Source of the DNA: Georgenia sp. M64
Lineage (GTDB): Bacteria > Actinomycetota > Actinomycetes > Actinomycetales > Actinomycetaceae
Direction of reading: 5' to 3'
Assembly (NCBI RefSeq): GCF_038049925.1
Contig: NZ_CP145809.1
Span: 1,612,001-1,676,000 of the forward strand
Length of the DNA: 64,000 nucleotides
Positions within the stretch are counted from its first letter, which is position 1, and each line of letters begins with the position of its first letter. The translations under genes and the position numbers were made by a program. Below the pieces are notes generated by a model that was not told the DNA's origin, did not search any database, and saw only the letters and a program-made list of their open reading frames with translations. Of this stretch, positions 45,429-61,694 are shown one piece after another.

Positions 45429-45446
45429 GGTCAAGAATCGATGAAG
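45429..45446 (+). promoter_or_regulatory. Direct-repeat site I (thiol operon)
   Basis: GGTCAAG-AATC-GATGAAG: two heptamers 11 bp apart, upstream of the glutaredoxin gene (minus strand, start 45384). It shares the half-site and spacing of nine other intergenic sites in this block. Confidence 0.65.
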
Positions 45447-45558
45447 TTCCTGGACCGGGGCGCCGGCGCGACGGCGCCGGCCTGCGCGCCGCGCGAACCG
45501 CCGTTGGTTGTGGAGCTCTGCGGAGTCACCCCATGCGCCCGGGTGTGGGCATCGCCCG

Positions 45559-46197
45559 TCAGAGAGGGGTGCCGTTGCCGCCGGTGCAGGAGGCGCCCGG
45601 CTCGGGGGTTTGCTCGCCCTGCAGGTACTTGGTGAGGAAGGTAGGGATCCGCTCGTCGCCGGCGTCGTCGAGCTCGAGCTGGACCCCCCAGGCGGTGAGG
45701 ACGACGGGGGCCGCGAGGTCGGGGTAGGGGCTCAGCAGTGCGTAGGCCTCGCCCTCGACGAGTTCCCGCAGCGTGGCGAGCTCGTCCGCCGGTAGGTCGG
45801 GCTGGTACGTGACCCACACGGCGCCGTGCTCGAGGGAGTGCACAGCGTTAGCGGTGGGGACCGGATCGTCGTAGGTGCCGCAGTTCTGCCACACGGGGTC
45901 GTGGTCGCCGCCGAGCGGGGGCCGCGCTGAGGGGGCGATCGCGGCCTCGACGTGGTTGGCGGAGAGGTCCGTGGTCTCCTCGACGTCGGGGATGGGTTGC
46001 TCGGCAGCGGCCTCCACGGCCGCCTGCTCGGTGCGCGCGCCGAGGATCACCGCGGTGGTCGTCCCGACGAGGGCCAGGATCACGACGGCGACCGCCGCGA
46101 CGATGACGAGCTGCCGACGGCGTTCCCTGCGGACCTGTTCGGCCCGCAGGGCTGCCACCTTCGCCAAGCGGTCGGCCCGCTGCTTGGGGTTGCTCAC
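45559..46197 (-). CDS. DUF3105 membrane-anchored protein
   Basis: A 212-residue protein with a basic N-terminus, one anchor helix (RQLVIVAAVAVVILALVGTT) and an extracellular DUF3105 domain: GGDHDPVWQNCGTYDDPVPT, AVHSLEHGAVWVTYQPDLP and VVLTAWGVQLELD. Conserved His, Cys and Trp suggest metal binding. In actinobacteria DUF3105 genes commonly lie beside multicopper oxidase and DUF305 genes, as here, and a copper role is inferred. It lies 64 bp after the NlpC/P60 gene on the same strand and may be read with it. Confidence 0.88.
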   Translation of the reverse strand: MSNPKQRADRLAKVAALRAEQVRRERRRQLVIVAAVAVVILALVGTTTAVILGARTEQAAVEAAAEQPIPDVEETTDLSANHVEAAIAPSARPPLGGDHDPVWQNCGTYDDPVPTANAVHSLEHGAVWVTYQPDLPADELATLRELVEGEAYALLSPYPDLAAPVVLTAWGVQLELDDAGDERIPTFLTKYLQGEQTPEPGASCTGGNGTPL

Positions 46198-46261
46198 ACT
46201 TCTCCATGAGTTTCAGGTGTCCACCGAGGAGTATCCGCGACCGGAGTCGTCGGTCGAGTGG

Positions 46262-47077
46262 TCAGGTGACGCGGATGAACGTCGGGTTCGAGTTGTAGAT
46301 CGGCCCCTCGGTCAGCGGAGTGCCGGGCTGGCGGGCGGCGATGTTGTTGCCGTTGCCGGTGTACACGCCCACATGGCCGGGCCAGGTGACGAGGTCCCCG
46401 GGACGGGCGTCTGCTGCGGAGACCCGAGTACCGACAGTGGCCTGCGCCGAGGACGTCCGGGGCAGGGAGACGCCGAAACGGGCGTACACGTACTGGGTGA
46501 AACCCGAGCAGTCGAAGCCTGCGGGGGTGGTGCCGCCCCAGACGTACGGCACCCCGAGGAAGGTCCGGGCATAGTCCACGATCGCCTGCCCGGACACGGT
46601 CGCGGTCAGGGCCGGTGCGGCGGCGACCGGCGTGTCAGGTGCCGGCGGAGCCGGTGCGGCCTCGGGTCGCGCCGCGCTCCGCGAGGCTGCCGGGACGGTG
46701 CGGTCGACGGCAGACTCCGGCTCCGGCTCAGCCGGCGCCGGCGCCGGCGCCGGCGCCGTCACGGGTTCGGGCCGGGGTGTCGCCTGCACCGTGGCAATTG
46801 CGTCGAGGTTCCAGCTGACGTCGGCCGGGACCTTGACCGTGGGGGTGGTGATGATCGCCGTCAGGGCCTCACGCGTGGCCGCTCCGGCGTCGACGTTGGG
46901 AAGCGCTCCGCCGGAGGGGACCGCGGTGGCCGACGTCGCGGCCATGGTGATCACCAGACCGGAGGAGGCGATAACGGCGAGTGACCGATGCGCGGGGAGC
47001 CCGGCGAGGGCCAGTGTCAGAGGCGTGGAGGGATGACGGGGGGCGCGGTGGCGCCCACGGGACCCAGGTCGGGACAT
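46262..47077 (-). CDS. Secreted NlpC/P60 peptidoglycan endopeptidase
   Basis: A 271-residue protein from ATG 47077 with AAGGAG upstream. It has an N-terminal signal/anchor segment (HRSLAVIASSGLVITMAATS), a Pro/Ala-rich linker and a C-terminal NlpC/P60 domain. The catalytic Cys lies in TPAGFDCSGFTQYVYARFG and the His in WPGHVGVYTG. It cleaves stem peptides in the wall. A c-di-AMP riboswitch precedes it, as for Rpf/NlpC genes of many actinobacteria, linking expression to osmotic or wall state. A direct-repeat site lies further upstream. Confidence 0.92.
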   Translation of the reverse strand: MSRPGSRGRHRAPRHPSTPLTLALAGLPAHRSLAVIASSGLVITMAATSATAVPSGGALPNVDAGAATREALTAIITTPTVKVPADVSWNLDAIATVQATPRPEPVTAPAPAPAPAEPEPESAVDRTVPAASRSAARPEAAPAPPAPDTPVAAAPALTATVSGQAIVDYARTFLGVPYVWGGTTPAGFDCSGFTQYVYARFGVSLPRTSSAQATVGTRVSAADARPGDLVTWPGHVGVYTGNGNNIAARQPGTPLTEGPIYNSNPTFIRVT

Positions 47078-47092
47078 GTCGCTCCTTGCGCC

Positions 47093-47235
47093 TGCGGGGT
47101 GAGCTGTCGGGTTCGGGCGGGAGTGCACCCGGTCAGGCCTGCGTGAGAAGGCCTGGCTTCACCCCTAGGGCACGGTTGGCCGTGCCCGTACACACTGGTT
47201 CCCCCGTCCCCGCCGAGGTCTGCCAGACGCGGACG
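47093..47235 (-). promoter_or_regulatory. ydaO-type c-di-AMP riboswitch
   Basis: Read on the minus strand, the conserved blocks occur in order: GACGGGGGAACCA, then GGGGTGAAGCC, a variable hairpin, and CCCGAACCCGACAGCTCACC, followed by the NlpC/P60 gene. These match the ydaO/yuaA riboswitch core, which turns expression off when c-di-AMP is high. Confidence 0.88.
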
Positions 47236-47335: not shown

Positions 47336-47353
47336 GTTGATCGAACCTTCATG
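47336..47353 (-). promoter_or_regulatory. Direct-repeat site J (NlpC/P60)
   Basis: On the minus strand CATGAAG-GTTC-GATCAAC, two heptamers 11 bp apart, about 100 bp before the riboswitch core, where an activator would sit. Confidence 0.5.
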
Positions 47354-47440: not shown

Positions 47441-48925
47441 CTACCGGGCCGGGCGGACATCCACCACCCCCATCATCCCGGCGTCCTCGTGGTCGAGGAT
47501 GTGGCAGTGATACACGGACCGGCCCGCGAAGTCGTCGAAGGCGATCCGCACCACCCGGCTGCCCCCGGCCGGGACCTCGACGACGTCGCGCCACATCGGG
47601 TCCGCGACCGCCTCGCCGTCCGACTCCACCACCTGCATCGGCCAGACGTGGAGGTGGAATGGGTGGTCCATGGGGGTGGGGTTGTCCAGCGTCCACTCCT
47701 CCACCGTGCCGGCGACGATCTCCTGGTCGGTGCGGGCTGGGTCGAAGGACCGGTCGTCGAAGCCGAACGACATGCCGCCGCCCATGCCCATGCCCATGGT
47801 GAACGTGATGAGCCGACGCCGAGCGGGTTCCACCGTCCGGAGATCGGCCGGAGCGGTCGCGGCCGGCAACGGCGGCGGCTCGACCGTCGCGCCGCTCACC
47901 TCCAGTATGGCCAGGTCGGCCGAATCAGGGCCCGGGGCGCCCCCCATCCCCATCCCCATTCCCATCCCCATGCCGCCGCGGTCATAAGGGAGAGCCCGCC
48001 ACGGTGCCCGTCCGGCACGGGGGGTGACGAGGAGGTCGGCCCGGTTGCCGGGAGCGAGGAGCACCCCCTCGGCCGCACGCAGAGAGGCGGAGCGTCCGAG
48101 GTCGACACCGAGCAGGTCGACGGGCTGGTCCGCCAGGTCCAGCAGAAGATGCCGAGAGGTGCAGGCGTTGATCACCCGCCATCGCTGCCGTTCGCCGGGT
48201 GCGGCGGTGACCCGGGGCCGGACCTGGCCGTTGACGAGGACGATGCTGCCCTCGCGGCCCATCATCTGGTCCTGCATCGTGGGTCGGGAGACGCTGCCGT
48301 CCGCCTCGAGGGAGAGGTCGGAGACGATGAGGATCCGCTCCCGGCTCATCGGGAGGTCGTCCTCCACGACGATCGCGCCGTACAGCCCGCCGAAGATCTG
48401 GTCGGCGACGTGGCCGTGGCGGTGCGGGTGGTACCAGAACGTCCCGGTGGGATGGTCGGCACGCAGCACGAACTCGTAGTCGAAGGCCTCGCCCGGCTCG
48501 ATGCTCAGGAACGGGTTGTCACCGTTGCCCTCGGGGGAGACGTGCAGACCGTGCACATGGAGGTTCGTGGGCGCGTCGAGCTGGTTCACCAGCCGTACCT
48601 GGAGCGTGTCCCCGGGGCGCAGACGCAAGGTAGGCCCTGGCACGGTGCCGTTGTACGTGAGCAGCCGCGCCCGGCGGCCCCCCACGTCGACCTCTGCCTC
48701 CGCCATCGTCAGCTCGACCCGGAGGCGGCCGCCCGTACTGGAGAGCTCCTCGGGTTCCACGAGGTCGGCGCCGCCGGCCAGACGCGGGGTCGAGTCGTCT
48801 CCGGGGCCTGTTCCGGAGCCCCCCGGCGCGCCGGCGCGTGCGAGCCCCAGGGCACCGGCGACCACACCGCCGGTGCCGAGTGCACCCAGCAGCAGGGCCT
48901 GTCGCCTGCTGATCGGTTCCATCAT
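47441..48925 (-). CDS. Multicopper oxidase, Tat-exported, Met-rich
   Basis: A 494-residue three-domain oxidase. The Tat signal is SRRQALLLGALGTGGVVAG. Copper ligands appear as NLHVHGLH (domain 1), FWYHPHRHGH, HPFHLHVW and HCHILDHEDAGMM (type 1, 2 and 3 sites; the last Met is the axial ligand). Met/Gly runs (MGMGMGMGMGG and MGMGMGGGMSFG) recall CueO/PcoA proteins that oxidise Cu(I). It overlaps the SHOCT gene (TGATG). A CsoR-like operator and a triple direct repeat precede the operon. It probably detoxifies periplasm-side copper. Confidence 0.93.
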   Translation of the reverse strand: MMEPISRRQALLLGALGTGGVVAGALGLARAGAPGGSGTGPGDDSTPRLAGGADLVEPEELSSTGGRLRVELTMAEAEVDVGGRRARLLTYNGTVPGPTLRLRPGDTLQVRLVNQLDAPTNLHVHGLHVSPEGNGDNPFLSIEPGEAFDYEFVLRADHPTGTFWYHPHRHGHVADQIFGGLYGAIVVEDDLPMSRERILIVSDLSLEADGSVSRPTMQDQMMGREGSIVLVNGQVRPRVTAAPGERQRWRVINACTSRHLLLDLADQPVDLLGVDLGRSASLRAAEGVLLAPGNRADLLVTPRAGRAPWRALPYDRGGMGMGMGMGMGGAPGPDSADLAILEVSGATVEPPPLPAATAPADLRTVEPARRRLITFTMGMGMGGGMSFGFDDRSFDPARTDQEIVAGTVEEWTLDNPTPMDHPFHLHVWPMQVVESDGEAVADPMWRDVVEVPAGGSRVVRIAFDDFAGRSVYHCHILDHEDAGMMGVVDVRPAR

Positions 48926-49191
48926 CACCTGCCCCGGAGCCGTCGGAGGCGGTCCTCGTACTCCTCTGCGCCGATCTCGCCACGTGAGTACCGTTCGGCG
49001 AGGATCTGCTCCGCATGGGGGGTGCCCGGCCCCGGGTCGAGTGCCCGGCCGCCCTGCCCTCTGAGGTCGGGTGTGCGGTCTGACCGCCCGCTCCGAAGGA
49101 GGGCGACGACGAGGACAACAGCGCCGGCGACGAGCAGCACCACGACGAGCCCCCCCACGCCCGCGCCCATCCCGTACCCGTCCCACATCAT
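48925..49191 (-). CDS. Small membrane protein with SHOCT domain
   Basis: An 88-residue protein: one helix near the N-terminus (VGGLVVVLLVAGAVVLVVAL) and a C-terminal SHOCT motif, AEQILAERYSRGEIGAEEYE followed by DRLRRL. SHOCT domains are short and often end membrane or oligomerising proteins. It is first in the operon with the multicopper oxidase and translationally coupled to it. Such SHOCT proteins are commonly paired with copper-resistance genes in actinobacteria; the exact role is unknown. Confidence 0.85.
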   Translation of the reverse strand: MMWDGYGMGAGVGGLVVVLLVAGAVVLVVALLRSGRSDRTPDLRGQGGRALDPGPGTPHAEQILAERYSRGEIGAEEYEDRLRRLRGR

Positions 49192-49293: not shown

Positions 49294-49322
49294 GTTCAGG
49301 GATTCTTCATGAAGCCTTCACC
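49294..49322 (-). promoter_or_regulatory. Direct-repeat site A, three half-sites
   Basis: Read on the minus strand: GGTGAAG (49322-49316), CATGAAG (49311-49305) and CCTGAAC (49300-49294), each separated by 4 bp. It lies between the divergent oxidase operon and response regulator. Confidence 0.7.
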
Positions 49323-49454: not shown

Positions 49455-49472
49455 CATGAAGATCCGGTGAAG
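49455..49472 (+). promoter_or_regulatory. Direct-repeat site B (response regulator promoter)
   Basis: CATGAAG-ATCC-GGTGAAG, two heptamers 11 bp apart, 60 bp before the response regulator start. Fits autoregulation. Confidence 0.7.
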
Positions 49473-49532: not shown

Positions 49533-50249
49533 ATGCAAGCGCTGAACCCGGACAGACCGAACCTGCCACGAGTGATGATCGTCGATGACGAGGCGCCACT
49601 CGCACAGCTGGTGGCGGGCTACTTCGAGCGGGAGGGCTTCGAGGTCGCCGTCGCAGGCGACGGGGAGACGGCGATCGCGCAGATGCGGCAGTGGGACCCG
49701 GGGATCCTGGTGCTGGACCTCGGCCTGCCGGGGGTGGACGGGGTCGAGGTCTGCCGAGCCGTCCGGACGTTCTCGGACTGCTACATCATTATGCTGACCG
49801 CCCGGGTGGAGGAGGTCGACAAGCTCATCGGGCTGTCCGTCGGGGCGGATGACTACATGACCAAGCCGTTCAGCCCACGTGAGCTGATGGCTCGGGTTCG
49901 AGCCATGCTGCGCCGGCCCCGCCGCCATGTCCAGGCGGACCAGGCGGTTGCCTCGTTCGGTCGTCTGACCCTCGATGCCGCTGCGCGGGAGGTCTCCGTC
50001 GACGGCCGACTTGTCGATCTGACACGGACGGAGTTCGACGTCCTCGCGGCACTGGCGTCACGTCCCCGGATGGTCCTGACCCGCCGGGCACTGATCGATG
50101 AGGTGTGGGGCGACGGGTGGGTCGGCGACGAGCATCTCGTGGACGTCCATGTCGGGCACCTGCGACGCAAGCTGGGGGACGACCCGACCGAGCCGGTGTT
50201 CGTCCGGACGGTGCGCGGGGTCGGGTACCGGATGGGCCCCGGAGAATGA
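49533..50249 (+). CDS. OmpR/PhoB-family response regulator
   Basis: A 238-residue regulator. The receiver domain has MIVDDEAPLAQLVAGYFE, phospho-acceptor Asp in ILVLDLGLPGVDGVEV, Thr in IIMLTAR and Lys in DDYMTKPFSPRELMARV. The winged helix has VDLTRTEFDVLAALASRPRM, VWGDGWVGDEHLVDVHVGHL and VRTVRGVGYRMGP. Such regulators bind direct repeats with an 11-bp period, exactly the spacing found at sites A-J. It overlaps the kinase gene (ATGA). Position beside the multicopper oxidase suggests control of copper or envelope stress. Confidence 0.92.
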   Translation: MQALNPDRPNLPRVMIVDDEAPLAQLVAGYFEREGFEVAVAGDGETAIAQMRQWDPGILVLDLGLPGVDGVEVCRAVRTFSDCYIIMLTARVEEVDKLIGLSVGADDYMTKPFSPRELMARVRAMLRRPRRHVQADQAVASFGRLTLDAAAREVSVDGRLVDLTRTEFDVLAALASRPRMVLTRRALIDEVWGDGWVGDEHLVDVHVGHLRRKLGDDPTEPVFVRTVRGVGYRMGPGE

Positions 50250-51379
50250 GCCCGGTCAGGCCGGAGCGGTGGGGCCTGGCCGCCCGGCTCCTGGCGGCCA
50301 CGATGGCGGTGGTCCTCGTCGCCGCCGGGACGGCGTGGGCGGTGGCGATCGCCATCGGGCCGGCGGTCTTCCACGACCACATGATCGACACGGGTCTGAG
50401 TGACCCTGCCGGGGTCGAACATGCGGAGCGAGCCTTCCGCACCGCCTCGGCCGTCTCGTTGGCCCTGGCGCTGGTGACCGCGCTGGCCGCTGCGGTGGCC
50501 GTGAGCCTGTTCCTGTCACGGCGCGTCACCCGCTCGCTCCAGCTCGCGACCACGGCATCGCAGCGGGTGGCCGCCGGCGACCACTCCGTCCGCATGCCTC
50601 ATGTGGGGATGGGACGCGAGTTCGACGACATGGGCGCGGCCTTCAACACCATGGCGGCCGAGCTCAGTGCGGTGGAAGCCAGCCGCACCCGGATGCTCGG
50701 CGATCTGGCGCACGAGATGCGCACGCCGGTCGCGACGCTGGACGGCTATCTCGAGGCGATCATCGACGGTGTCGAGCGGCCGGACGAGAAGACCTTGACC
50801 ATGCTGCGCACCCAGGTCGGGCGGTTGGCCCGGCTCGCCGAGGACGTCGCACTGGTGACGACCGCCGAGGAGGGCCGGCTGGGCATGCGGCGTGAGCCTG
50901 TGGAGGTGGCCGCGCTGGTCCGGTCGGCCGGAGATCTGGCCGCGGTACGTTTCGCGGCGCGTGGGGTCGACCTGGACACGACGATCGACGTCGCGGCCAC
51001 GGGCGCCGTCGTCGTGGCCGATCGTGACCGCCTCGGTCAGGTGCTGACCAACCTTCTCGACAACGCGCTCAGACACACCCCGCAGGGTGGCCGCGTCCGG
51101 CTCCTCGCGCGTCAGGACGGTTCCACGGTTGTCATCGCGGTCTCCGACTCCGGGGAGGGGATCCCCGATGAGCACCTGCCGCACCTGTTCGAGCGGTTCT
51201 ACCGCGTCGACACCGCGCGTGACCGGGCGCACGGCGGCTCCGGGGTGGGACTGGCGATCGTGCGGGCCATCGTCCATGCCCACGACGGCGCCGTCACCGC
51301 CGCGAGCGACGGCCCAGGGAGGGGTTCGACGTTCACCGTGACACTTCCCGTTCGGGGGAGCGTCACGGCCGGCCGGTGA
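50246..51379 (+). CDS. Sensor histidine kinase
   Basis: A 377-residue kinase. Two helices (RLLAATMAVVLVAAGTAWAV and RTASAVSLALALVTALAAAV) flank a short extracellular loop of about 40 residues with one His pair (FHDHMIDTG). A HAMP region follows, then the phospho-acceptor box MLGDLAHEMRTPVATLDGYL and the ATPase domain (VLTNLLDNALRHTPQGGRV, SDSGEGIPDEHLPHLFERFY, GGSGVGLAIVRAIVHAHDG). The small loop leaves little room for a large ligand, so a metal or membrane signal is plausible. Its 3' end overlaps the converging gene by 17 bp. Confidence 0.92.
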   Translation: MSPVRPERWGLAARLLAATMAVVLVAAGTAWAVAIAIGPAVFHDHMIDTGLSDPAGVEHAERAFRTASAVSLALALVTALAAAVAVSLFLSRRVTRSLQLATTASQRVAAGDHSVRMPHVGMGREFDDMGAAFNTMAAELSAVEASRTRMLGDLAHEMRTPVATLDGYLEAIIDGVERPDEKTLTMLRTQVGRLARLAEDVALVTTAEEGRLGMRREPVEVAALVRSAGDLAAVRFAARGVDLDTTIDVAATGAVVVADRDRLGQVLTNLLDNALRHTPQGGRVRLLARQDGSTVVIAVSDSGEGIPDEHLPHLFERFYRVDTARDRAHGGSGVGLAIVRAIVHAHDGAVTAASDGPGRGSTFTVTLPVRGSVTAGR

Positions 51380-51906: not shown

Positions 51907-51935
51907 CGTGCAGAACCGGTGAATCTTTCCTGAAC
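51907..51935 (+). promoter_or_regulatory. Direct-repeat site C, three half-sites
   Basis: CGTGCAG, GGTGAAT and CCTGAAC, each separated by 4 bp, in the 89-bp gap upstream of the small membrane gene (minus, 51847). Confidence 0.65.
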
Positions 51936-51936
51936 C

Positions 51937-52725
51937 TCAGGTCCGGACGCTGGTCGCTTGGCGACCAGCGCTCTCCCGCGACCTCGGGCTCGGATCCGAC
52001 GTGACGCGTTCTGCCCGCAGGACGAGCAGGACGCCGGCGACGACACTGGCGAGGGCCCACAGCTGCGGCGGGGTCAGGCCCAGCACGGCGGCGTCGTTGA
52101 GGCGCAGGAACTCGACGAGGAACCGGGACAGGCCGCTGAGGACCAGATAGACGCCGAATACCGCCAGGGGGGACAGCCGGCCGGCCAGTCGCCACAGGGC
52201 GACGGCGATGAGTGCGGCAGCGAGGGCCTCGTACACAGGGGTGGGGTGCACCGGCACATCGGTGGCGACGACCCCGGAGGGGAACCGCATGCCCCACGGC
52301 AGGTCGGTGGGGCGCCCGTACGTGCCGTCGCCGGAGACCAGGCATCCCAGACGTCCGATGCCGTACGCCACGGTGAGCGGGACCGCCGCCGCACCGGCGA
52401 CGGTGCCCACCGGCAGGTGATGGCGGCGGATCACGACGAGTGCCGCCCCGAGCCCCCCGACGAGGCCGCCGTACCAGGTGAAACCCATGCCACCGAGGTC
52501 GTGCACGGTCACGTCCGGCAGGCTCTCGAGCAGGAAGTAGATCTTCGCGCCGGCGAACCCCCACACCGTGGCCCACAGGACCAGCGCGTGGGCGGAGTCC
52601 TTCTTCAGCCCAAGCGTGTCGAACGCGCGACCGAGCAACCACGCGGCCACGAGCGCGGCCAGTGCCTTGCTCAGACCGTAGCTCTGTACGTCGATCCCGA
52701 GGATCGAGAAAAGCACCGGTCGCAA
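51937..52725 (-). CDS. Lgt-like prolipoprotein diacylglyceryl transferase paralogue
   Basis: A 262-residue membrane protein with about seven helices. Lgt family features are MGFTWYGGLVGGLGAALVVI, the signature region GIGRLGCLVSGDGTYGRPTD followed by LPWGM, and HPTPVYEALAAALIAVALWR. In true Lgt the signature is GRxGNFxNGE; here Asn is replaced by Cys (GRLGC), also seen in the paralogue at 60121. It may be a specialised transferase for copper lipoproteins or a derivative with a new role. A direct-repeat site lies about 107 bp upstream. Confidence 0.85.
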   Translation of the reverse strand: MRPVLFSILGIDVQSYGLSKALAALVAAWLLGRAFDTLGLKKDSAHALVLWATVWGFAGAKIYFLLESLPDVTVHDLGGMGFTWYGGLVGGLGAALVVIRRHHLPVGTVAGAAAVPLTVAYGIGRLGCLVSGDGTYGRPTDLPWGMRFPSGVVATDVPVHPTPVYEALAAALIAVALWRLAGRLSPLAVFGVYLVLSGLSRFLVEFLRLNDAAVLGLTPPQLWALASVVAGVLLVLRAERVTSDPSPRSRESAGRQATSVRT

Positions 52726-52896: not shown

Positions 52897-54642
52897 CTAC
52901 CGCACCTGCGAGATGTCGACCGCGCCTTGGTCCTCGAGCCACGTCAGCGGCTCGGTGGTGGTGAGGTCGTCGTCGGTGTGCACCTCGAAGTGCAGGTGCG
53001 GCCCGGTCGAGCGCCCGTAGTTGCCGACCCCGGCGATGACCTCGCCCGCGCTCACCTGCTGGCCGACCGCGACGTACATGCCGTCGGGATCCTCGTGGTT
53101 GTACCAGGTGTAGACGGTGCGGTCGTCGATCTCGTGCTCGAGGATGATGAGCATGCCCGACCGGCCTGCCTTGCCCGGACCCACGTAGGTCACCATGCCG
53201 TCGGCGACGGCGTAGATGGGCGTCTTCAGAGGGGCGGCGAAGTCGACACCGGCGTGGTAGTCCCTCCCGGGCCCCACCGGATTGTTGCGCCAGCCGTAGA
53301 GGGACGTGATCCGGTAGGTGCCCTGGGCCACCGGCATGACGATCCGCTCCCGTGGGGCAACCGCGGCCAGTGCGCCGTTGGCGCCGTCGATGCCGCCGGT
53401 GGGAAGAGCGCCGCGGATCCCTGCCCGCGACGCCTGGGTGATCAGGGCTCGACCGGCTGCCGTGGGATCGGCAAGCAGACCGGTCGGGGGAACCACCGTC
53501 GCCCCGGCTGCTGCGGCGTCGAGCGTGACAAGGACGCTCGCCCGCGTCGACACCGACGTCGCGGCGGACGCTTGCGCCCCGTGCCCCGGCTCTGCCGCAC
53601 CCAGGAACGGGGCACCGATGGTCAGCACACCCAGCACGCCGGCGACCATGGCACGCCCTGCGGTACTGCGGTGCCCGCCCCGTTCGGCGGATCGCCGGCG
53701 CCGGTGCGTCGAGCCGGGCCGACGCTCGCACGGTGCCGGGGTCAGGACCTCGGTGCGGTCCTGCCCGACTGCCGGGTGCTCCGTTTCCCTTCGTGCCGCG
53801 CCGGCGGTCCCGACGATCGCCTGCCAACGCCGGTCCAGCTCTTCGGGAGCCACCGGCGCCGCCCGGGCGGCCTCCTCCGGTGCTGCCGACGTCGTCAGCG
53901 CGCCCTCGGGCACGGTCCGTCCTGAGGCGGCGCGGTCGTCGGGACGGACCGGCCCGACCGCGTGCTCGGGCGGGCGGACAAGGTCGCTGGGCGATGGAGT
54001 GGACGGGTTCGCGCCGCCCGCGCGCGAGGACCGCTTCGCCAGTTGAGCCGCTGAGGAGGACGTGGCCCCGTCAGTCGCTGGTCTCGGCTCCTCGGATGCA
54101 GCCGGTGCGTCGCTCGGCGACAGGGCCGCGGCAAGGCGTCCATCCGCCAGGGTGCGCAGCTCGCGACGGGTGCTCGCACCAGCTGACGCTGCCGACGGGC
54201 GGGACGCGGGGTTCGGTCCCGTGGCTGGTTGGGGGGTGGGCGGCTCGGACCGGTCAGCCTCGGCGGAACCGGCCTGACGGAGCTGGCGCCGGGTCGGTGC
54301 GGGAGTCGGCGGTTGGTCGGCCTGGCGGAGCTGGCGCCGGGTCGGTGCGGGAGGCGGCGGTTGGTCGGCCTGGCGGAGCTGGCGCCGGGTCGGAGCGGGA
54401 GTCGGCGGTTGGTCGGCCTGGCGGAGCTGGCGCCGGGTCGGAGCGGGAGGCGGCGGTTGGTCGGCCTGGCGGAGCTGGCGCCGGGTCGGAGCGGGAGCCG
54501 GCGGCTGGGTCCACGCCACTTCGCGGCGAAGCTCGGCAGATTCCCGGGCCGGAACCGGTGAGAGGCCGCGTCCGGCCTTGTCGCGTACATCGCGCCCGGT
54601 CGACCGTGCCCGAGCCTGCGATTCGGGCACAGCAGTGGACAT
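52897..54642 (-). CDS. M23 (LytM-type) peptidase with tandem-repeat N-terminus
   Basis: A 581-residue protein. Residues 50-130 hold five copies of a 16-residue unit PTRRQLRQADQPP(P/T)PA, rich in Arg, Gln and Pro. A disordered section and one membrane/signal helix follow (AMVAGVLGVLTIGAPFLGAA near residue 330). The C-terminal M23 domain has zinc ligands in RDYHAGVDFAAPLKTP and the catalytic HLHFEVHTDDD. It cleaves wall cross-links. The long cytoplasmic repeat region is odd for an M23 enzyme and may bind a partner. Site H lies 105 bp upstream. Confidence 0.88.
   Translation of the reverse strand: MSTAVPESQARARSTGRDVRDKAGRGLSPVPARESAELRREVAWTQPPAPAPTRRQLRQADQPPPPAPTRRQLRQADQPPTPAPTRRQLRQADQPPPPAPTRRQLRQADQPPTPAPTRRQLRQAGSAEADRSEPPTPQPATGPNPASRPSAASAGASTRRELRTLADGRLAAALSPSDAPAASEEPRPATDGATSSSAAQLAKRSSRAGGANPSTPSPSDLVRPPEHAVGPVRPDDRAASGRTVPEGALTTSAAPEEAARAAPVAPEELDRRWQAIVGTAGAARRETEHPAVGQDRTEVLTPAPCERRPGSTHRRRRSAERGGHRSTAGRAMVAGVLGVLTIGAPFLGAAEPGHGAQASAATSVSTRASVLVTLDAAAAGATVVPPTGLLADPTAAGRALITQASRAGIRGALPTGGIDGANGALAAVAPRERIVMPVAQGTYRITSLYGWRNNPVGPGRDYHAGVDFAAPLKTPIYAVADGMVTYVGPGKAGRSGMLIILEHEIDDRTVYTWYNHEDPDGMYVAVGQQVSAGEVIAGVGNYGRSTGPHLHFEVHTDDDLTTTEPLTWLEDQGAVDISQVR
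54273..54512. repeat. Five 48-bp tandem repeats inside the M23 gene
   Basis: Units starting CCTGACGG or CCTGGCGG recur at 54273, 54321, 54369, 54417 and 54465, nearly identical at DNA level, alternating between two variants (Pro or Thr codon). In-frame copy-number change is likely. Confidence 0.9.
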
Positions 54643-54746: not shown

Positions 54747-54764
54747 CTTCGTCGAATCTTCACC
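54747..54764 (-). promoter_or_regulatory. Direct-repeat site H (M23 gene)
   Basis: Minus strand GGTGAAG-ATTC-GACGAAG, two heptamers 11 bp apart, about 105 bp before the M23 start. Confidence 0.6.
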
Positions 54765-55355: not shown

Positions 55356-55373
55356 GGTGAAGGACTGGTGAAG
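55356..55373 (+). promoter_or_regulatory. Direct-repeat site E, perfect copies
   Basis: GGTGAAG-GACT-GGTGAAG, two identical heptamers 11 bp apart, in the divergent region between 55319 (minus) and 55526 (plus). Confidence 0.75.
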
Positions 55374-55820: not shown

Positions 55821-56222
55821 ATGACGCTTCCACGTGCGCTCGCCGCTCGGATCAGTGGCGCGGCGCAGGCCCCGCCCGCGCCGTCGAGCCCCGGGCTGTG
55901 CCTCGCTCAGGGAGACCGTCGCCGTGAGGCACCGACGTCGCAGCGGGCCGAGCTGACGGTGCGCGGCTCGTACTTCCCTCAGGTCATCCCCCTGGCTGCC
56001 GGCGTGCCCACGGTGCTGGGCATTCATCGCCAGGAAGGATCCTGGTGCTCCGAGCAGCTTCACATCCCCGAGCTCGGTGTCGTGGTCGACCTGCCCTGTT
56101 TCGAGCGCACGGAGGTCGCACTGCCGGCCCTGCCTGTCGGCCGGTACGAGTTCACCTGTGGCATGGAGATGCTCCGCGGCACGCTGGCCGTGGGCGAGTC
56201 CGGGGTCTTCAGCGAACCTTGA
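55821..56222 (+). CDS. Cupredoxin-like protein
   Basis: A 133-residue protein from ATG 55821 (GGAGG upstream). The core RGSYFPQVIPLAAGVPTVLG, QEGSWCSEQLHIPELGVVVD, LPCFERTEVALPALPVGRYE and FTCGMEMLRGTLAV is a beta-barrel cupredoxin similar to copper-chaperone CupA-type domains. Conserved Cys (three), His and Met are suitable copper ligands. There is no clear signal peptide, so it may act in the cytoplasm or be exported with a partner. It precedes the second multicopper oxidase by 100 bp and could deliver copper to it. Confidence 0.8.
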   Translation: MTLPRALAARISGAAQAPPAPSSPGLCLAQGDRRREAPTSQRAELTVRGSYFPQVIPLAAGVPTVLGIHRQEGSWCSEQLHIPELGVVVDLPCFERTEVALPALPVGRYEFTCGMEMLRGTLAVGESGVFSEP

Positions 56223-56264
56223 CCGTCCGGCCGAAGGACCTTCGTCCGCACGAGGGATGATTCC

Positions 56265-56321: not shown

Positions 56322-57863
56322 GTGTCCCCCATATCCCCAGAGCGCATGGATCGTCGCCGCTTCCTCCAGGTCGGTGCCGCCGGTCTGGTGGTGATCGGTG
56401 GTGGGGCGTTCGCCGGGACGCGGCTGTTCGAGCAGCCCAACCCGGGGCCGGTCGGTCCTGGGTCTGCCGTCGTCGCGCGGACCGAGAAGGCTCGGCGCAG
56501 GAGCGGCACGGTGGTGCGTCGTGAGCTACGGGCGGCCGCGACCGAGGTCGATCTCGGAGGCCGGGTGGTGCGGACGTGGGCCTATGACGGCACCGTGCCG
56601 GGGCGGGAGATCCGCGTGCGGGCCGGGGACGAGCTGCAGGTCCGGTTGACCAACGACTTGCCGGCCGAGACGACGGTGCACTGGCACGGTCTGGCGTTGC
56701 GCAACGACATGGACGGCGTGCCGGGTCTGACCCAGGACGCCGTGGCGCCGGGCGCCGGGTTCGACTACTCCTTCGTGGTCCCCGACCCGGGCACCTACTG
56801 GTTCCACCCGCACGTGGGTGTCCAGCTCGACACCGGCCTCCAGGCCCCGCTGATCGTGGAGGATCCTGCCGAGCCCGGTGACTACGACATGGAGGTCGTC
56901 CTGGTCCTGGACGACTGGACGGACGGCTGGGGCGAGTCGCCGGAGACCATCCTCGAGCGCATGGGGCGCGAGGGCATGGTCATGGGTGGCACGGCGATGG
57001 ACGGCATGGACCACGGAGGGACAGCGATGGGGGAAGCCATGCCCTCCCAGGACCGGCCCCTGGGCGCCGACACCGGCGACGTCGCCTATCCCGCGCACCT
57101 CATCAACGGCCGCCTGCCCGAGGACGCCTACGTCATCCGATCCCGGCCCGGGCGCCGGCTGCGGCTGCGGCTCATCAACGCCGCGAGCGACACCGCGTAC
57201 CGGTTCGCGGTCGGCGGGCACACCCTGACCGTGACCCACACCGACGGCTTCCCCGTCGAGCCGGTGGAGGTCGAGACCCTCATCATCGGGATGGGCGAGC
57301 GGTACGACGTCGTGCTCACCGCGGGTGACGGGGCCTTCCCGGTGGTCGCGGCGCCCGAGGGCAAGGATGCAACGAGCGGGTTCGCCCTGCTGCGCACCGC
57401 CTCCGCGCACGTCCCGGTCCCGGGTGCGAGCCCCGCCGAGCTGCGCGGCCGGCTGCTCGCCTACAGCGCGCTGGTCCCCACCGAGAGCGCGCAGTTGGAC
57501 CCGCGGGAGCCGGACCGCGAGCTCGAGCTGACCCTGCAGATGGTCGACGGCGGCCGGAGGTGGTTCCTCAACGGCGCCGGATTCGGTGACCACGAACCGC
57601 TGGAGGTCCGAGCCGGCGAGCGGGTCCGGCTGGTCCTGCGCAACGAGTCGATGATGTTCCATCCCATGCACGTCCACGGCCACACCTTCGCCCTCGGGGC
57701 GGCGGGTCGGTCGGGGATCCGCAAGGACACGGTCAACGTGCTGCCGATGGAGTCCTTGTCGGTGGATCTGCAGGCGGACAACCCCGGTCAGTGGGCGGTG
57801 CACTGCCACAACATCTACCACGCGGAGCTGGGCATGGCCACGGTGCTGTCGTACGTCGAGTGA
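56322..57863 (+). CDS. Multicopper oxidase, second, Tat-exported
   Basis: A 513-residue three-domain oxidase from GTG 56322. Tat signal DRRRFLQVGAAGLVVIGGG. Ligand motifs are TTVHWHGLALRNDMDG, GTYWFHPHVGVQLDTG, MMFHPMHVHGHTFALG and WAVHCHNIYHAELGMATVL. A Met/His-rich insert (MVMGGTAMDGMDHGGTAMGE) near residue 225 probably binds Cu(I). It differs clearly in sequence from the oxidase at 47441, so the two were not made by recent duplication. It is likely a copper oxidase of the CueO/CopA type. Confidence 0.93.
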   Translation: MSPISPERMDRRRFLQVGAAGLVVIGGGAFAGTRLFEQPNPGPVGPGSAVVARTEKARRRSGTVVRRELRAAATEVDLGGRVVRTWAYDGTVPGREIRVRAGDELQVRLTNDLPAETTVHWHGLALRNDMDGVPGLTQDAVAPGAGFDYSFVVPDPGTYWFHPHVGVQLDTGLQAPLIVEDPAEPGDYDMEVVLVLDDWTDGWGESPETILERMGREGMVMGGTAMDGMDHGGTAMGEAMPSQDRPLGADTGDVAYPAHLINGRLPEDAYVIRSRPGRRLRLRLINAASDTAYRFAVGGHTLTVTHTDGFPVEPVEVETLIIGMGERYDVVLTAGDGAFPVVAAPEGKDATSGFALLRTASAHVPVPGASPAELRGRLLAYSALVPTESAQLDPREPDRELELTLQMVDGGRRWFLNGAGFGDHEPLEVRAGERVRLVLRNESMMFHPMHVHGHTFALGAAGRSGIRKDTVNVLPMESLSVDLQADNPGQWAVHCHNIYHAELGMATVLSYVE

Positions 57864-57955: not shown

Positions 57956-57973
57956 GATGAAGAACCGGTGAAG
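57956..57973 (+). promoter_or_regulatory. Direct-repeat site F (DUF305 operon)
   Basis: GATGAAG-AACC-GGTGAAG, two heptamers 11 bp apart, in the 244-bp gap upstream of the DUF305 gene (plus). Confidence 0.7.
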
Positions 57974-58107: not shown

Positions 58108-58752
58108 GTGAGACTTCGGACCCGCCCCGCCGCAGCCGCCGGCGCCCTCGCCCTGACCCTCGTGCTCACCGCCTGCGGCGGCTCCGCGGACGAGGCCGAC
58201 AGCGGGGGTGAGGCCACCACGCAGGAGACGGCGACGCAGGTCGCACCGGAGGCGACGGAGCAGAGCGAGGCGGCGCACAACGGCGCCGACACCGCCTTCG
58301 CGCAGATGATGATCATCCACCACGAGGGCGCCATCGAGATGGCCGACCTGGCTGTGGAGAAGGCGGACTCCGCGGACGTGCGCAGCCTCGCCGAGGGCAT
58401 CTCCGCCGCCCAGGGACCTGAGATCGAGGAGATGACCTCCTGGCTCGAGGGCTGGGGTGAGGACGTCACGCCCATGGGCGACATGGAGGGGATGGAGGGG
58501 ATGGACAGCGGTATGGACATGGACGGCATGGACCAGGAGGGCGCCATGGCCGAGCTCGACGAGCTCTCCGGCGCCGACTTCGACCGCCGCTTCCTCGAGC
58601 TGATGATCGCCCACCACGAGGGTGCCATCGAGATGGCAGAGCTGCAGACGGCCGAGGGTGAGAACCCGACGGCCCTGGAGCTCGCCGAGAAGATCGTCCA
58701 GGACCAGCAGGGCGAGATCACCGAGATGGAGCAGATGCTGCAGGACCTGTGA
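58108..58752 (+). CDS. DUF305 lipoprotein (copper-linked)
   Basis: A 214-residue lipoprotein from GTG 58108. Lipobox LTAC-GGSA follows a signal peptide. Two DUF305 repeats each carry the ferritin-like pair M-x2-H-H-E-G-A-I-E-M (QMMIIHHEGAIEMADLAVEK near residue 70 and ELMIAHHEGAIEMAELQTAE near 165). A Met-rich linker (MGDMEGMEGMDSGMDMDGMD) joins them. This His/Met content is typical of extracellular copper storage or buffering proteins. It overlaps the next gene (GTGA). Confidence 0.92.
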   Translation: MRLRTRPAAAAGALALTLVLTACGGSADEADSGGEATTQETATQVAPEATEQSEAAHNGADTAFAQMMIIHHEGAIEMADLAVEKADSADVRSLAEGISAAQGPEIEEMTSWLEGWGEDVTPMGDMEGMEGMDSGMDMDGMDQEGAMAELDELSGADFDRRFLELMIAHHEGAIEMAELQTAEGENPTALELAEKIVQDQQGEITEMEQMLQDL

Positions 58753-59705
58753 CCACCCTCCTCACCGCGGTGCCGGCGGCGGCCCACCCCCAGGGCCGCC
58801 GCCAACATCGTCCCGTCCGGACGAAAGGGCCGTCCTTGCTCTCGTTCACACGATCGGGCGTGGCGTTGCCGGCCCTGTCCCTCGTGCTCGCAGGCTGCTC
58901 CGCGGCACTGCCCGGAGGCACGGCCACCGAGACAGGTGCTGGCGCGGCGCTCGGGCACGTTCACGACCTGGCGCTCAACCCCGGTGACGGCCTGGTCTAC
59001 GCCGCCACCCACCAGGGCCTGTACGCCCTCGACGGCGGTGAGCCGGCACCGGTCGGTGAGACCAGGTACGACACCATGGGCTTCACGGTGCAGGGGCCGG
59101 ACACCTTCCTGGCCAGCGGCCACCCCGGACCGGGCCGGGAGGGCCCGGGGAACCTCGGTCTGCTCATCAGCACCGACGCCGCTGGTAGCTGGTCTGAGGT
59201 CTCACTCGGTGGCGTCAGCGACTTCCACGCCCTGACAACGGTCGGGGCCCGCCTCTACGGGCTTGACTCCTCCACCGGTACGGTCCGGCGCAGTGACGAC
59301 GGCGGAGCCACCTGGGTGGAGGGCGCCGCGATCGCCGCCCGCGACCTCGATGCCCATCCGATCGATCCGGACCGCGTCGTCGCCACCACCGCCGAGGGCC
59401 TCATGGCCAGCGACGACGGCGGCGCCACCTTCACGTTAGGGGACGGGCAGCCGCCCGAGCCGCTCGTGGTCATCGACCACCTGCCGGCAGCAACCGGGGG
59501 CGCCGTCGTCGGCCTCGACGCCGCTGGGATCGCGTGGCGTTCGGCGCCGACGGGCTGGGTCTCCTCCGGTCCCCCCAACGGCGCCCCGGCTGCCTTCACC
59601 GCCGTCGACGAGGAGACGTACCTCGGGGCCTTCGACGGGACGGTGCTCCTGAAGAGCGAGGACCGGGGCGAGTCCTGGCAGCCGATCCTTGACGGGGTCA
59701 GGTGA
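58749..59705 (+). CDS. F510_1955-type beta-propeller lipoprotein
   Basis: A 318-residue lipoprotein from GTG 58749 with lipobox LAGC-SAAL after an unusually long n-region. Asp-box-like beta-propeller repeats follow (ALGHVHDLALNPGDGLVYAA, ISTDAAGSWSEV, RSDDGGATWVEG, ASDDGGATFTLG, KSEDRGESWQPI), the pattern of sialidase/BNR folds and of the F510_1955 family. Such genes are commonly neighbours of DUF305 and multicopper oxidases. It is translationally coupled to DUF305 and probably acts with it at the outer face. Confidence 0.88.
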   Translation: MTTLLTAVPAAAHPQGRRQHRPVRTKGPSLLSFTRSGVALPALSLVLAGCSAALPGGTATETGAGAALGHVHDLALNPGDGLVYAATHQGLYALDGGEPAPVGETRYDTMGFTVQGPDTFLASGHPGPGREGPGNLGLLISTDAAGSWSEVSLGGVSDFHALTTVGARLYGLDSSTGTVRRSDDGGATWVEGAAIAARDLDAHPIDPDRVVATTAEGLMASDDGGATFTLGDGQPPEPLVVIDHLPAATGGAVVGLDAAGIAWRSAPTGWVSSGPPNGAPAAFTAVDEETYLGAFDGTVLLKSEDRGESWQPILDGVR

Positions 59706-60120
59706 GGACCGCGTCACCCCGCCGCTTGTGCGGTTCGGGGCCTCTCCTCGGGTGCGATGGCGGTGCTGAAGCGCCTGTCGCCCCGAGGAGGGGCAACATG
59801 AGTGTGCCGGGATAAAACAGGCCACCACGGTGCCGGGCGCGCCCAGCACCGGGTCGACGCGGCACGGGCGTCCCTGGACCTGTAACGGCCGATCGACCCG
59901 GCCCGGGCGCTCACCGACCTGGCCGCGGAGATCACCACCGAGGTCCGCCTGCTGCGCGTGGTCGAGGACGAGCTCACTGCTCACGCCCGCGACATGGGGC
60001 CGCACAGCCAGGGGCGTTCCGCTCCGACACCAGGCTGGTTCCACGGACCTCGGAGACCGGGAAGACGAGCGGCTAGGACCAGCCGACGTTCCAAGGCCGG
60101 CCTCTCCCTGCTTCAGGGAA
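59706..60120 (+). other. Intergenic region with possible coding remnant
   Basis: Within 59830-60010 a plus-strand frame, broken by a stop, reads RPIDPARALTDLAAEITTEV and VVEDELTAHARDMG, which has coding character and could come from a transposase or other decayed gene. No intact gene is supported. Confidence 0.35.
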
Positions 60121-61632
60121 TCAGCCCAGCACCAGAGCGGTGGCAGATCCAGCGAGCACCGCGGCGGCTGCGACCAGGGTGACGTGACGTCCATGTGTCG
60201 TGGCGCGGGGGATGCTCCGTAGCGGGAAGAGGGTCTGGCGACCCAGCACGTAGGCCGCGACCGCGAGCACGAGTACCAGACCCGAACCGGCGGCCGGCGA
60301 CCTCAGGACGAGAACGAGCGCGATGACCCCTAGCGCCGCGGAGAGAGCGGACTCGAGGAGCTGCACGGGTATCCGCCGCACCCCGACCCGACGATCGGAG
60401 GACCAGACACCCCACCTCGATGATGTCGGCCGGCCGGCGCAGCACCCGCCCAAGAGACAGCCGAGCCTGCCCACCGCCATCGCCACGAGCAGGCCCGGAG
60501 CGGTGACGTCGAGCACGGCTCCCAGTGGCAGATCGAGAAGGGATGTGCCTGCTACGAGCGCGCTCACGGTCGCGATGACAAACCCCTGCACGGACAGCCC
60601 CGGTGTCAGGAAGCTCCTCCGTTCCCGGGGGTGGGTAAGCAGGTAGTACACCTTGGCACCTACTAGGCCGAGCGTGCTCGCGGCGACCGTGAGCCCGGCG
60701 AGGCCCAGCCCTGGGATGTCGAACTGGCGGGCCAGCAAAGCCTGAAGGATCAGTGCCAGGACAAATCCCGTGCCCACGAGCGCCGGCCAGGCGCCCAGAC
60801 GGACCCCCGGCGCGAGGCTTCGTACGAAAGGAGCGAGCGCGGTGCGGCCCGAAGCACTGCCCCGCGACAGGCCAGGTCCGGGCGCCTCCACCCACGGGGC
60901 AGGTCCTCCGGTTGGCGCGGGCCGTACCGGCGTGGCCACCACCTCCCACTCGCCCGCGGCGACGTCCTGGATCCGAGTCGTCAAGGCGATCCAGCCCGAA
61001 CCGGGCACAACGTTCTCCAGCGACGACGTCACCGCGAACTCTGTGCGGCCTTCCGGCTTCGCCGAGCTGTCTTCCTCGCCGGAGCCCTGCTTCAGCCGGC
61101 CGCGGAGATGCACCGTCATGGTGTAGCGGTCGCCGGTAGGCTCCGCGTCGAACCAGTACGTCACACCCAGCGACTGCTGGTCCACGCCCTCGAGCGCACT
61201 GCAGCTCAGATCTGTGATGACGACTGCGGAACTGGGGATGTGCCGCACCAGCCGAGGTGGCGGACCGCTCAGCGAAGTCACAGCGACCGGAACAGCCTCC
61301 TCGGTCGATCCGCTCGAAAGGGGACCCTGCGCTGCGGCGACCTGTGTCGTTGCTGGGGCCCCCTCGTGAACGGACGCGACGGCGAGCCCCACGGAAGGTC
61401 GAGGGCCGGGACGCGCCGGTCTCACGTCCTTTGGACGAGCGGTAGACGACGGCGGAACTTGTGGACGGGACGGCGGAACTTGGGGACGAGGTGTCCGTAC
61501 CTGCCGAAGAGCACCAGGGGACGGACGGCGGAGTGCTTTCGCGTCAGTCGGCGCCCGGAAGAAGGCTGCTCCGGCCCCCTGCATTGGCTCCTCATCTGCC
61601 GAGGTCTGGGGGGTCGCTCCCGTGGTGTTCAC
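60121..61632 (-). CDS. Lgt-like membrane domain fused to an N-terminal extra domain
   Basis: A 503-residue protein. Residues 1-130 are Pro/Arg/Ser-rich and low complexity. Residues 140-250 form a beta-rich domain (VVITDLSCSALEGVDQQSLG, YTMTVHLRGRLKQGSGEEDS, AAGEWEVVATPVRP). The C-terminal 230 residues are an Lgt-like membrane domain: FDIPGLGLAGLTVAASTLGL, LVGAKVYYLLTHPRERRSFL, VAMAVGRLGCLLGGCCAGRP and IPVQLLESALSAALGVIALV. GRLGC matches the variant at 51937, and the added GGCC gives three near-consecutive cysteines. The fusion is unusual and suggests a specialised membrane enzyme. Confidence 0.8.
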   Translation of the reverse strand: MNTTGATPQTSADEEPMQGAGAAFFRAPTDAKALRRPSPGALRQVRTPRPQVPPSRPQVPPSSTARPKDVRPARPGPRPSVGLAVASVHEGAPATTQVAAAQGPLSSGSTEEAVPVAVTSLSGPPPRLVRHIPSSAVVITDLSCSALEGVDQQSLGVTYWFDAEPTGDRYTMTVHLRGRLKQGSGEEDSSAKPEGRTEFAVTSSLENVVPGSGWIALTTRIQDVAAGEWEVVATPVRPAPTGGPAPWVEAPGPGLSRGSASGRTALAPFVRSLAPGVRLGAWPALVGTGFVLALILQALLARQFDIPGLGLAGLTVAASTLGLVGAKVYYLLTHPRERRSFLTPGLSVQGFVIATVSALVAGTSLLDLPLGAVLDVTAPGLLVAMAVGRLGCLLGGCCAGRPTSSRWGVWSSDRRVGVRRIPVQLLESALSAALGVIALVLVLRSPAAGSGLVLVLAVAAYVLGRQTLFPLRSIPRATTHGRHVTLVAAAAVLAGSATALVLG

Positions 61633-61665
61633 CGTATCGATTGTCGCCTAGCCGGGAGCCGTGAT

Positions 61666-61694
61666 TGTCAACGATCGATGAAGGTTCGACGAAG
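61666..61694 (+). promoter_or_regulatory. Direct-repeat site G, three half-sites
   Basis: TGTCAAC (61666-61672), GATGAAG (61677-61683) and GACGAAG (61688-61694), each separated by 4 bp, between the divergent Lgt-like gene (33 bp away) and lnt. Confidence 0.65.

Follow-up and report, generated by a model that had tools for sequence, protein, structure and literature searches.

The closest described counterpart of the locus studied here is the CopRS copper switch of Corynebacterium glutamicum. Its CopR box, TGAAGATTTgaTGAAGATTT, was demonstrated by EMSA and mutation; it lies at -59 to -78 of copR, where CopR activates both divergent operons, and CopR bound a single place in the genome (PMC3140484, accessible part). 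Systems of this type are marked by activation that depends on copper and by binding that phosphorylation strengthens. The same source gives 97% similarity between the cop region of pLEW279b and its counterpart in C. glutamicum. In Listeria and Enterococcus, an lgt2-lit2 copper operon has been described (PMC8275575, accessible part). We analysed a window, i.e. the whole stretch of 64,000 nucleotides, in which a 16-kb block carries heptamer repeats with an 11-bp period. We propose, with a probability of about 0.88 and from sequence comparison, that these repeats are CopR boxes of a CopRS copper switch. CopR binding, copper as the signal and activation are what we infer here from the sites, their statistics, their conservation and the relationship of the proteins. 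The regulon is apparently larger than in Corynebacterium and would include enzymes attaching fats to surface proteins.

All ten repeats of the sequence-only reading were found at their places in the window. They comprise 12 half-site pairs, 49294 and 61666 being triples with two pairs each, and three of them (47336, 49294 and 54747) have minus-strand orientation. An eleventh site at 56207, which had been overlooked, was added; it overlaps the 3' end of the cupredoxin gene. The ten listed sites also proved to lie between genes, according to the gene coordinates that we drew: wholly intergenic 18-mers make up 15% of positions 45385-61857, which yields 0.15^10 or about 6e-9 if the sites are independent. 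The triple at 51907, read by eye as CGTGCAG-GGTGAAT-CCTGAAC, is weak, and matrix scores were poor at 51918 and 49290. All features are collected in Table 1.

Table 1. Genes and predicted boxes of the block (window positions; scores from the position matrix, in bits)
Feature	Position	Strand	Score	Remarks
TlpA/redoxin-like protein	43455..44276	-		start codon uncertain; frame overlaps neighbour
CcdA/DsbD-type membrane protein	44066..45040	-		Pfam 25.8 bits, just under cut-off 27.1; start drawn by us
glutaredoxin-like protein (Glrx)	45046..45384	-		
CopR-type box	45429..45446	+	25.8	44 bp before glutaredoxin-like gene, reverse orientation
DUF3105 protein	45559..46197	-		
NlpC/P60 hydrolase	46262..47128	-		
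CopR-type box	47336..47353	-	20.1	before NlpC/P60 gene
multicopper oxidase 1 (MCO1)	47441..48922	-		
SHOCT-domain membrane protein	48925..49191	-		
triple CopR-type box	49294..49322	-	12.6 + 27.2	before SHOCT gene and multicopper oxidase 1
CopR-type box, 18-mer caTGAAGATCCggTGAAGACGG	49455..49472	+	27.0	-61 to -78 of copR start
copR, OmpR-type response regulator	49533..50249	+		
copS, histidine kinase	50246..51379	+		~30-residue sensor loop FHDHM...HAE
weak triple box	51907..51935	+	6.2	just after lgt1, before two small membrane-protein genes
Lgt-like protein 1 (Lgt1)	51937..52725	-		altered motif; Pfam LGT over cut-off
CopR-type box	52833..52850	+	16.0	107 bp before lgt1
M23 peptidase	52897..54642	-		
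CopR-type box	54747..54764	-	27.9	before M23 peptidase gene
CopR-type box	55356..55373	+	13.4	between divergent small membrane-protein genes
cupredoxin-like protein	55821..56222	+		
CopR-type box	56207..56224	-	30.9	top score in window; before multicopper oxidase 2
multicopper oxidase 2	56322..57863	+		best NCBIfam match copper_res_A, below its cut-off
CopR-type box	57956..57973	+	23.1	before DUF305 lipoprotein gene
DUF305 lipoprotein	58108..58752	+		lipoprotein by eye
F510_1955-family protein	58836..59705	+		lipoprotein by eye; scanned from 58749; start drawn by us
Lgt-like protein 2 (Lgt2)	60121..61632	-		Cx4CC motif; Pfam LGT over cut-off
triple CopR-type box	61666..61694	+	21.1 + 30.2	between divergent lgt2 and lnt
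Lnt	61858..63528	+		second genome copy

The window sites agree with the C. glutamicum CopR box in sequence, in spacing and in distance from copR. In the comparison of regulators, the CopR of pLEW279b stood in for that of C. glutamicum: the window response regulator is 57% identical to it and the recognition helices, GDEHLVDVHVGHLRRKLG and GDERIVDVHIGNLRRKLG respectively, are near-identical. A midpoint-rooted tree gives a support of 0.91 to the smallest clade containing both, which also includes a paralogue at genome position 3702298, and all CopR-like regulators, with the regulator at 440763 at their base, are set apart with a support of 0.95 from 14 other response regulators, hand-picked from 67 more distant loci (L117 was left out). 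CopS shows two transmembrane helices by eye and HAMP, HisKA and HATPase domains by Pfam, and shares its short loop with the CopS of pLEW279b. Among the sensor loops compared, the second His and the HxE motif were each present in 50 of 51; this comparison did not include L117, whose sequence is that of L025, L142, which had not been scanned, or L023, which gave no kinase match. Against TIGR01387, the cztR/silR/copR heavy-metal subfamily, the regulator reached 153.5 bits, below the curated cut-off of 279.2. Since the best 25 of 97 NCBIfam matches of the regulator and the best 25 of 85 of the kinase were all below cut-off, no name was taken from them. The copper-resistance genes adjoining boxes, those of the two multicopper oxidases and DUF305, are candidate targets.

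PhoP also recognises 11-nt head-to-tail repeats, and the sites could be read as PHO boxes, with the core GTTCACC (reverse complement GGTGAAC). The PHO boxes of Streptomyces have the same arrangement, a response regulator binding 11-nt direct repeat units, with an equal period and 6 of 7 bases in common, but differ by their core and by serving phosphate genes (PMC6283541, accessible part). The end base required of a PHO half-site occurs in only 5 of the 24 half-sites of the 12 pairs, while 18 end in G (two half-sites being counted twice). The scanned proteins of the block are copper-, thiol-, lipoprotein- or wall-related or of unknown function and none belongs to a phosphate family; moreover the boxes go along with CopR relatives. 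One GGTGAACN4GGTGAAC match does exist at genome position 607078, before a gene that we take, from its sequence, to be pstC-like. On half-site end base and gene content, the PHO reading was rejected as highly improbable.

To weigh the CopR boxes against chance, patterns were scanned over the whole 4.18-Mb genome. The union pattern BRTSAABNNNYSVYSAAS gave 31 matches against 6 for the reversed pattern, and 13 of the 31 fall in the block, a count which is partly circular because 12 of these 13 sites had served to derive the pattern. The C. glutamicum core TGAAGN6TGAAG, which is less circular, gave 10 matches against 1 reversed, 4 of them in the block. For a matrix we then took 36 distinct sites in other genomes, to which the union pattern had led. 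It detected 14 window sites of at least 10 bits, 13 of them in the block, and the 12 best matches of the window are all inside it. Random DNA did not show such a density, the mean being 0.54 and the maximum 3 sites of at least 10 bits over 50 Markov-1 random windows, and the reversed matrix had no match in the window at 6 bits. Across 24 orthologous copper loci the distances between TGAAG pairs peak at 11 bp (28 of 52); among 67 loci whose response regulators are more distant, 6 of 238 pairs have this distance. Two other searches were discarded: a loose one, GGTGAAGN4GGTGAAG with 3 mismatches, was too noisy (565 matches against 241 in the control), and counts of the strict pattern, taken in 149 genomes belonging to the order, depended strongly on composition, the controls often being near the counts. 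G137, which belongs to the same family and has three CopR relatives, gave 9 strict-pattern matches against 1 in the control, 4 of them on contigs C23 and C31, which both carry a copR, and 2 on C21.

Orthologous promoters were compared in other genomes by counting boxes of at least 15 bits next to relatives of the same genes. Such boxes occurred in 23 rows for copR (22 loci), 8 for SHOCT, 5 each for Glrx and DUF305, 3 for Lgt1, 2 for the 54867-type gene and 1 for Lgt2. Not among these box-gene rows are the window's own locus L113, L140, which coincides in place with L009, and L128-L139, whose regulator identity is below 60%. L117 repeats the sequence of L025 and is counted twice in the rows, both being listed among the loci. 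Orientation, which the sequence-only reading had found varying and unexplained, turned out to be largely conserved gene by gene: the box points towards copR in 20 of 23 rows, away from Glrx in 5 of 5 (4 loci) and away from DUF305 in 5 of 5, the exceptions pointing towards DUF305 being the window's own DUF305 box and a weak site at genome position 3705905. In L032, a box lies 108 bp before the Lgt1 relative, oriented as in the window, with a second, opposite box at 163 bp.

Contrary loci were also encountered. A strict-pattern box was absent within about 1.5 kb in 7 of 18 loci with a regulator identity of at least 60%, and the strict-pattern match in L115 may be due to chance; with the matrix, further sites come up in L115, L119, L121, L127, L140 and L141 and none in L114 and L122. 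Below 60% identity, all inside the CopR-like clade, none of 12 loci has a strict-pattern match, and 4 of them (L129, L131, L132 and L133) have a matrix site of at least 15 bits. In the plasmid islands L103, L106, L109 and L111 the strict pattern finds nothing; matrix sites were present in L111 and, away from copR, in L106, and no site of 15 bits in L103 and L109. In the closest CopR relative fetched, L022 (79% regulator identity), where a 17.5-kb contig carries copRS and SHOCT genes, the matrix found no site even at 10 bits. This lack of boxes would suit a reading in which the repeats have no regulatory role and arose by chance or belong to a mobile repeat, as would a box-scoring 22-mer found on both sides of a transposase-like gene (genome positions 1730198 and 1732207). 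The pattern, matrix and TGAAG-spacing statistics speak against it, as do the boxes adjoining the same genes in other genera. In addition, the boxes are not copies of one element because their sequences differ outside the half-sites. We rejected this reading too, its probability being very small.

The genome encodes three CopRS-like pairs, besides an OmpR-type pair that is less closely related (regulator 52% identical). CopR2, at genome positions 3702298-3703002, is 76% identical to CopR with a single V/I change in the recognition helix, its partner CopS2 is 67% identical to CopS, and CopR3 (1727143-1727880) is 59% identical. Outside the block, too, copper-type genes of the genome have boxes before them, which leaves the equation of the regulon with this block unsupported. 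The boxes of the paralogous copper island at 3.70 Mb precede copR2 (56 bp, 14.4 bits), Glrx (30.1 bits), SHOCT/MCO1 (12.0) and DUF305 (11.2 and 18.6). An OmpR-type head-to-tail regulon is borne out by the match to the C. glutamicum box, by the boxes at orthologous genes and by the regulator and kinase relationships. The claim that the regulator at 49533 controls the set is supported as far as a CopR-type regulon including its own gene is concerned; sole control cannot be credited to it because three CopRS-like pairs exist. With the fourth, more distant regulator, the assignment is ambiguous. The sites may be CopR boxes whose main regulator is CopR2 or CopR3, or all of them jointly, which we hold to be rather unlikely: CopR2 and CopS2 resemble the window pair closely and the 18-mer of box 45429 recurs identically before Glrx in the CopR2 island (genome position 3705070), but the window copR has its box at the C. 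glutamicum distance and sits mid-island. Local control is also the usual arrangement.

Under the preferred reading of the repeats as boxes of the local CopRS switch, CopS would sense excess extracytoplasmic copper through its short loop and phosphorylate CopR, and CopR~P would dock as a dimer on TGAAG repeats arranged head to tail with an 11-bp period. The transcription units of the island, almost without exception and with copRS among them, would be turned on together with copper genes elsewhere in the genome. The two other CopRS-like pairs, of which one has almost the same recognition helix, probably use the same sites. The predicted products are copper oxidases and a cupredoxin, lipoproteins such as DUF305, a relay for thiol redox, hydrolases of the cell wall and additional enzymes that modify lipoproteins. 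Lgt1 and Lgt2 depart from the housekeeping motif GRLGNxxNxE, with GRLGCLVSGDGTYG and GRLGCLLGGCCAG against GRLGNYFNQELYG at genome position 1484392; the residues of this motif are presumably catalytic. Taken together, the data permit a tentative idea, for which the odds are below even: Actinobacteria may have a horizontally spread copper-inducible envelope programme, in which CopR switches on oxidases, a second lipoprotein-modification line and wall hydrolases. The second line would consist of both Lgt-like proteins, whose altered motif contains Cys, and the second Lnt; copper-binding lipoproteins would be made, acylated and set in a remodelled wall, N-acylation taking away a copper ligand at their N termini. 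Such a programme would be a convergent counterpart of the Firmicutes lgt2-lit2, and several CopRS pairs would act on a common set of boxes within a single cell.

Loosely related envelope genes thereby become one predicted copper response, with copper predicted to induce lipoprotein modification and wall hydrolases. The DNA code of the boxes can be searched across Actinomycetota, and a sensor-loop signature is gained for CopS. In the literature covered, Firmicutes are the only group for which copper induction of lipoprotein-modifying enzymes is described (PMC8275575, accessible part), and among the open-licence literature matches listed none concerned a copper-induced lnt or a multi-site CopR regulon in Actinobacteria.

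Compared with known systems, and as far as the accessible parts of the sources go, the block resembles the lgt2-lit2 operon in being a copper-resistance element in which a further lgt accompanies an enzyme that N-acylates lipoproteins, with copper control that is predicted for the block; the Firmicutes enzyme is Lit2, whereas here it is Lnt, and here there are two Lgt-like proteins with a changed motif (PMC8275575). The MCO-lgt-copD determinant of Pseudarthrobacter sp. AG30 is likewise an actinobacterial copper determinant with a multicopper oxidase and lgt, but no CopRS or box is mentioned in the accessible part (PMC6256500). With C. glutamicum CopRS the block has in common an OmpR-type regulator and a kinase whose loop has about 30 residues, an 11-bp period of TGAAG half-sites in a box equally far before copR, and targets, predicted ones in the block, that include a multicopper oxidase and a thioredoxin-like TlpA gene (PMC3140484, PMC3353115). 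It differs by its 11 predicted sites, with more elsewhere in the genome, against one bound site in C. glutamicum (PMC3140484, PMC3353115), by three CopRS-like pairs, and by the Lgt-like, Lnt, M23 and NlpC/P60 genes that adjoin boxes. The kind of copper system to which the block belongs, CopRS, is already known; what is new with respect to C. glutamicum is the number of predicted sites, the Lgt-like proteins, the second Lnt and the wall hydrolases.

Ten direct repeats of head-to-tail GGTGAAG-like half-sites 11 bp apart had been proposed by the sequence-only reading as sites of the response regulator at 49533-50249 (plus strand; here called CopR) within the ~16-kb block 45385-61857. All ten were confirmed in the sequence and all ten lie between genes, the gene coordinates being drawn from open frames and family matches with start codons and gene limits of our own choice. 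Three of the ten read on the minus strand, and the arrays at 49294, 51907 and 61666 are triple. An additional predicted box at 56207-56224, which that reading had overlooked, obtained the top score of all window sites with a weight matrix built from boxes of other genomes. The sole window site of at least 10 bits outside the block (11941, genome position 1623941; 11.9 bits) lies between two minus-strand frames, by eye those of a transposase-like protein (10583-11797) and of a small membrane protein (12011-12304).

A genome scan, proposed with the repeats as a check, yielded 31 matches of a degenerate union pattern against 6 of its reversed control; 13 of the 31 fall in the block (16 of 4184 kb). 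Twelve of these 13 block matches had themselves served to define the pattern, which is why three further tests were applied. First, the published Corynebacterium glutamicum core TGAAGN6TGAAG was matched 10 times genome-wide versus once when reversed, with 4 matches in the block. Second, the matrix was built on 36 distinct sites of other genomes found by the union pattern, with which it shares ancestry, inheriting the fixed positions and not the spacer. It ranked 12 block sites on top of the window, and 13 of the 14 window sites scoring at least 10 bits were in the block, versus a mean of 0.54 sites across 50 random windows. Third, the spacing of plain TGAAG words (5-39 bp scored) peaked at 11 bp in the block (4 of 5 pairs); this spacing accounted for 28 of 52 pairs in 24 related copper loci; around more distant regulators (67 loci) it accounted for 6 of 238.

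Among the 18 union-pattern matches outside the block, 9 are assigned to the neighbourhood of copper-type genes: three at 3.70 Mb, one at 1730198 and the five single matches of the table. The other 9 comprise three overlapping predicted coding frames (581262, 1103367, 3454313), the PHO-like 607078, the second transposase flank 1732207, and four unassigned matches at 1623941, 1696196, 3618751 and 4125633. The second island encodes CopR2/CopS2 (76 and 67% to the window pair), TlpA, CcdA, a glutaredoxin-like protein (Glrx), DUF305, NlpC/P60, F510, SHOCT and the multicopper oxidase MCO1. Its boxes include an 18-mer identical to that of the window before Glrx, and the copR2 box (14.4 bits) lies 56 bp upstream of its gene, as does the window 22-mer from copR. 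By eye, identical 22-mers (25.6 bits as CopR boxes) at 1730198 and 1732207 stand either side of a transposase-like gene, the left one adjoining a four-helix copper-binding-like protein, and 607078 is a PHO-box-like GGTGAACN4GGTGAAC ahead of a pstC-looking gene.

Loci of the wider predicted regulon in the Georgenia genome (C1)
Feature	Position
Second copper island, paralogous and with a separate CopRS pair (L009, L010)	3701138-3710343
Third CopRS-like pair	1725926-1727880
Pattern match before DUF3105 paralogue	270406
Pattern match before multicopper-oxidase fragment	1678917
Pattern match before small His-rich protein, then F510 relative	1715917
Pattern match before remote Glrx relative	1705630
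Pattern match before distant response regulator gene	440763 (gene)

A strict pattern was searched in related and more distant loci. It gave 19 matches against 0 reversed in 240 kb from 13 genome loci with regulator identity of at least 57% (absent within these from L022, L027, L029, L030 and L031), 11 against 1 in 250 kb from 11 plasmid islands of Corynebacterium, Rhodococcus, Gordonia, Cellulomonas and others (none in L103, L106, L109 and L111), and 13 against 3 in 1102 kb from the 67 more distant loci. It overlooks real-looking boxes, such as one of 24.7 bits by matrix before copR of plasmid pLEW279b. At 15 bits or more, the matrix detected 76 sites in 44 loci (own-genome stretches included; L025 and L117 are duplicates), 70 of them intergenic by our gene caller, and 8 in the 1102 kb of distant loci; reversed, it had no match at 15 bits in 24 related loci. 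These boxes stand beside relatives of the window genes (rows within 300 bp: copR 23, SHOCT 8, Glrx 5, DUF305 5, MCO2 4, Lgt1 3, others). In a further 42 rows the neighbour is unrelated to any window protein; many of these neighbours are, by eye, small membrane proteins, CsoR-like regulators or P-type ATPases. In metagenome locus L032, boxes precede lgt1, lgt2 and the 54867-type gene by 108, 107 and 44 bp (window: 107, 33 and 36 bp from starts of our choice) in the window's orientation, lgt1 having a second, opposite box. The link between CopR relatives and boxes is strong but not universal, because no site reached 10 bits in L022, the closest relative fetched (17.5 kb), in L114 and L122 (3.7 kb) or in L109 (25 kb), and 4 of 12 loci below 60% regulator identity had a site of at least 15 bits.

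Box orientation, earlier described as varying without explanation, is largely gene-specific: among rows of at least 15 bits, the box points towards copR in 20 of 23, and away from Glrx and DUF305 in 5 of 5 each. The window DUF305 box and a weak site at 3705905 are exceptions, facing the DUF305 gene. Gene-to-gene changes need no special explanation, because a single directional box serves C. glutamicum CopR in activating both divergent operons, as reporters indicated (PMC3140484).

LGT proteins number three in the genome and LNT_N proteins two; a single member of each family is encoded elsewhere and the rest belong to the island. The motif GRLGNxxNxE is replaced by GRLGCLVSGDG in Lgt1 (51937-52725) and GRLGCLLGGCC in Lgt2 (60121-61632), and is likewise missing from relatives in L032, L104 and L112; Cx4CC is carried by Lgt2 types. 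The housekeeping copy is canonical and so, as a counterexample, is lgt of the Cryobacterium island L103. The N-terminal part of the M23 peptidase (54260-54500) contains about five copies of the Pro-rich repeat RRQLRQADQPPxPAPT. In Listeria and Enterococcus, lgt2 and lit2 share one copper-induced operon, and copper is reported to interact with a lipopeptide N terminus (PMC8275575); an N-acylating Lnt under CopR would parallel this lgt2-lit2 arrangement.

The regulator itself is 57% identical to CopR of pLEW279b, with a nearly identical recognition helix. The smallest clade of a midpoint-rooted tree to hold both also contains the paralogue at 3702298 (support 0.91); a larger clade (0.95), which adds the other CopR-like regulators with the distant regulator 440763 at its base, is separate from 14 further regulators hand-picked from the more distant loci. 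CopS relatives share the short sensor loop of the window kinase (50246-51379), FHDHM...HAE, a candidate copper site: among 51 loops including the window's (48 distinct), FHxH occurs in 39, the second His in 50 and HxE in 50. According to PMC3140484, the cop regions of pLEW279b and C. glutamicum are 97% similar, and EMSA and mutation there showed TGAAGATTTgaTGAAGATTT, located -59 to -78 relative to copR, to be bound by C. glutamicum CopR. The box upstream of the window regulator reads caTGAAGATCCggTGAAGACGG, and its 18-mer spans -61 to -78.
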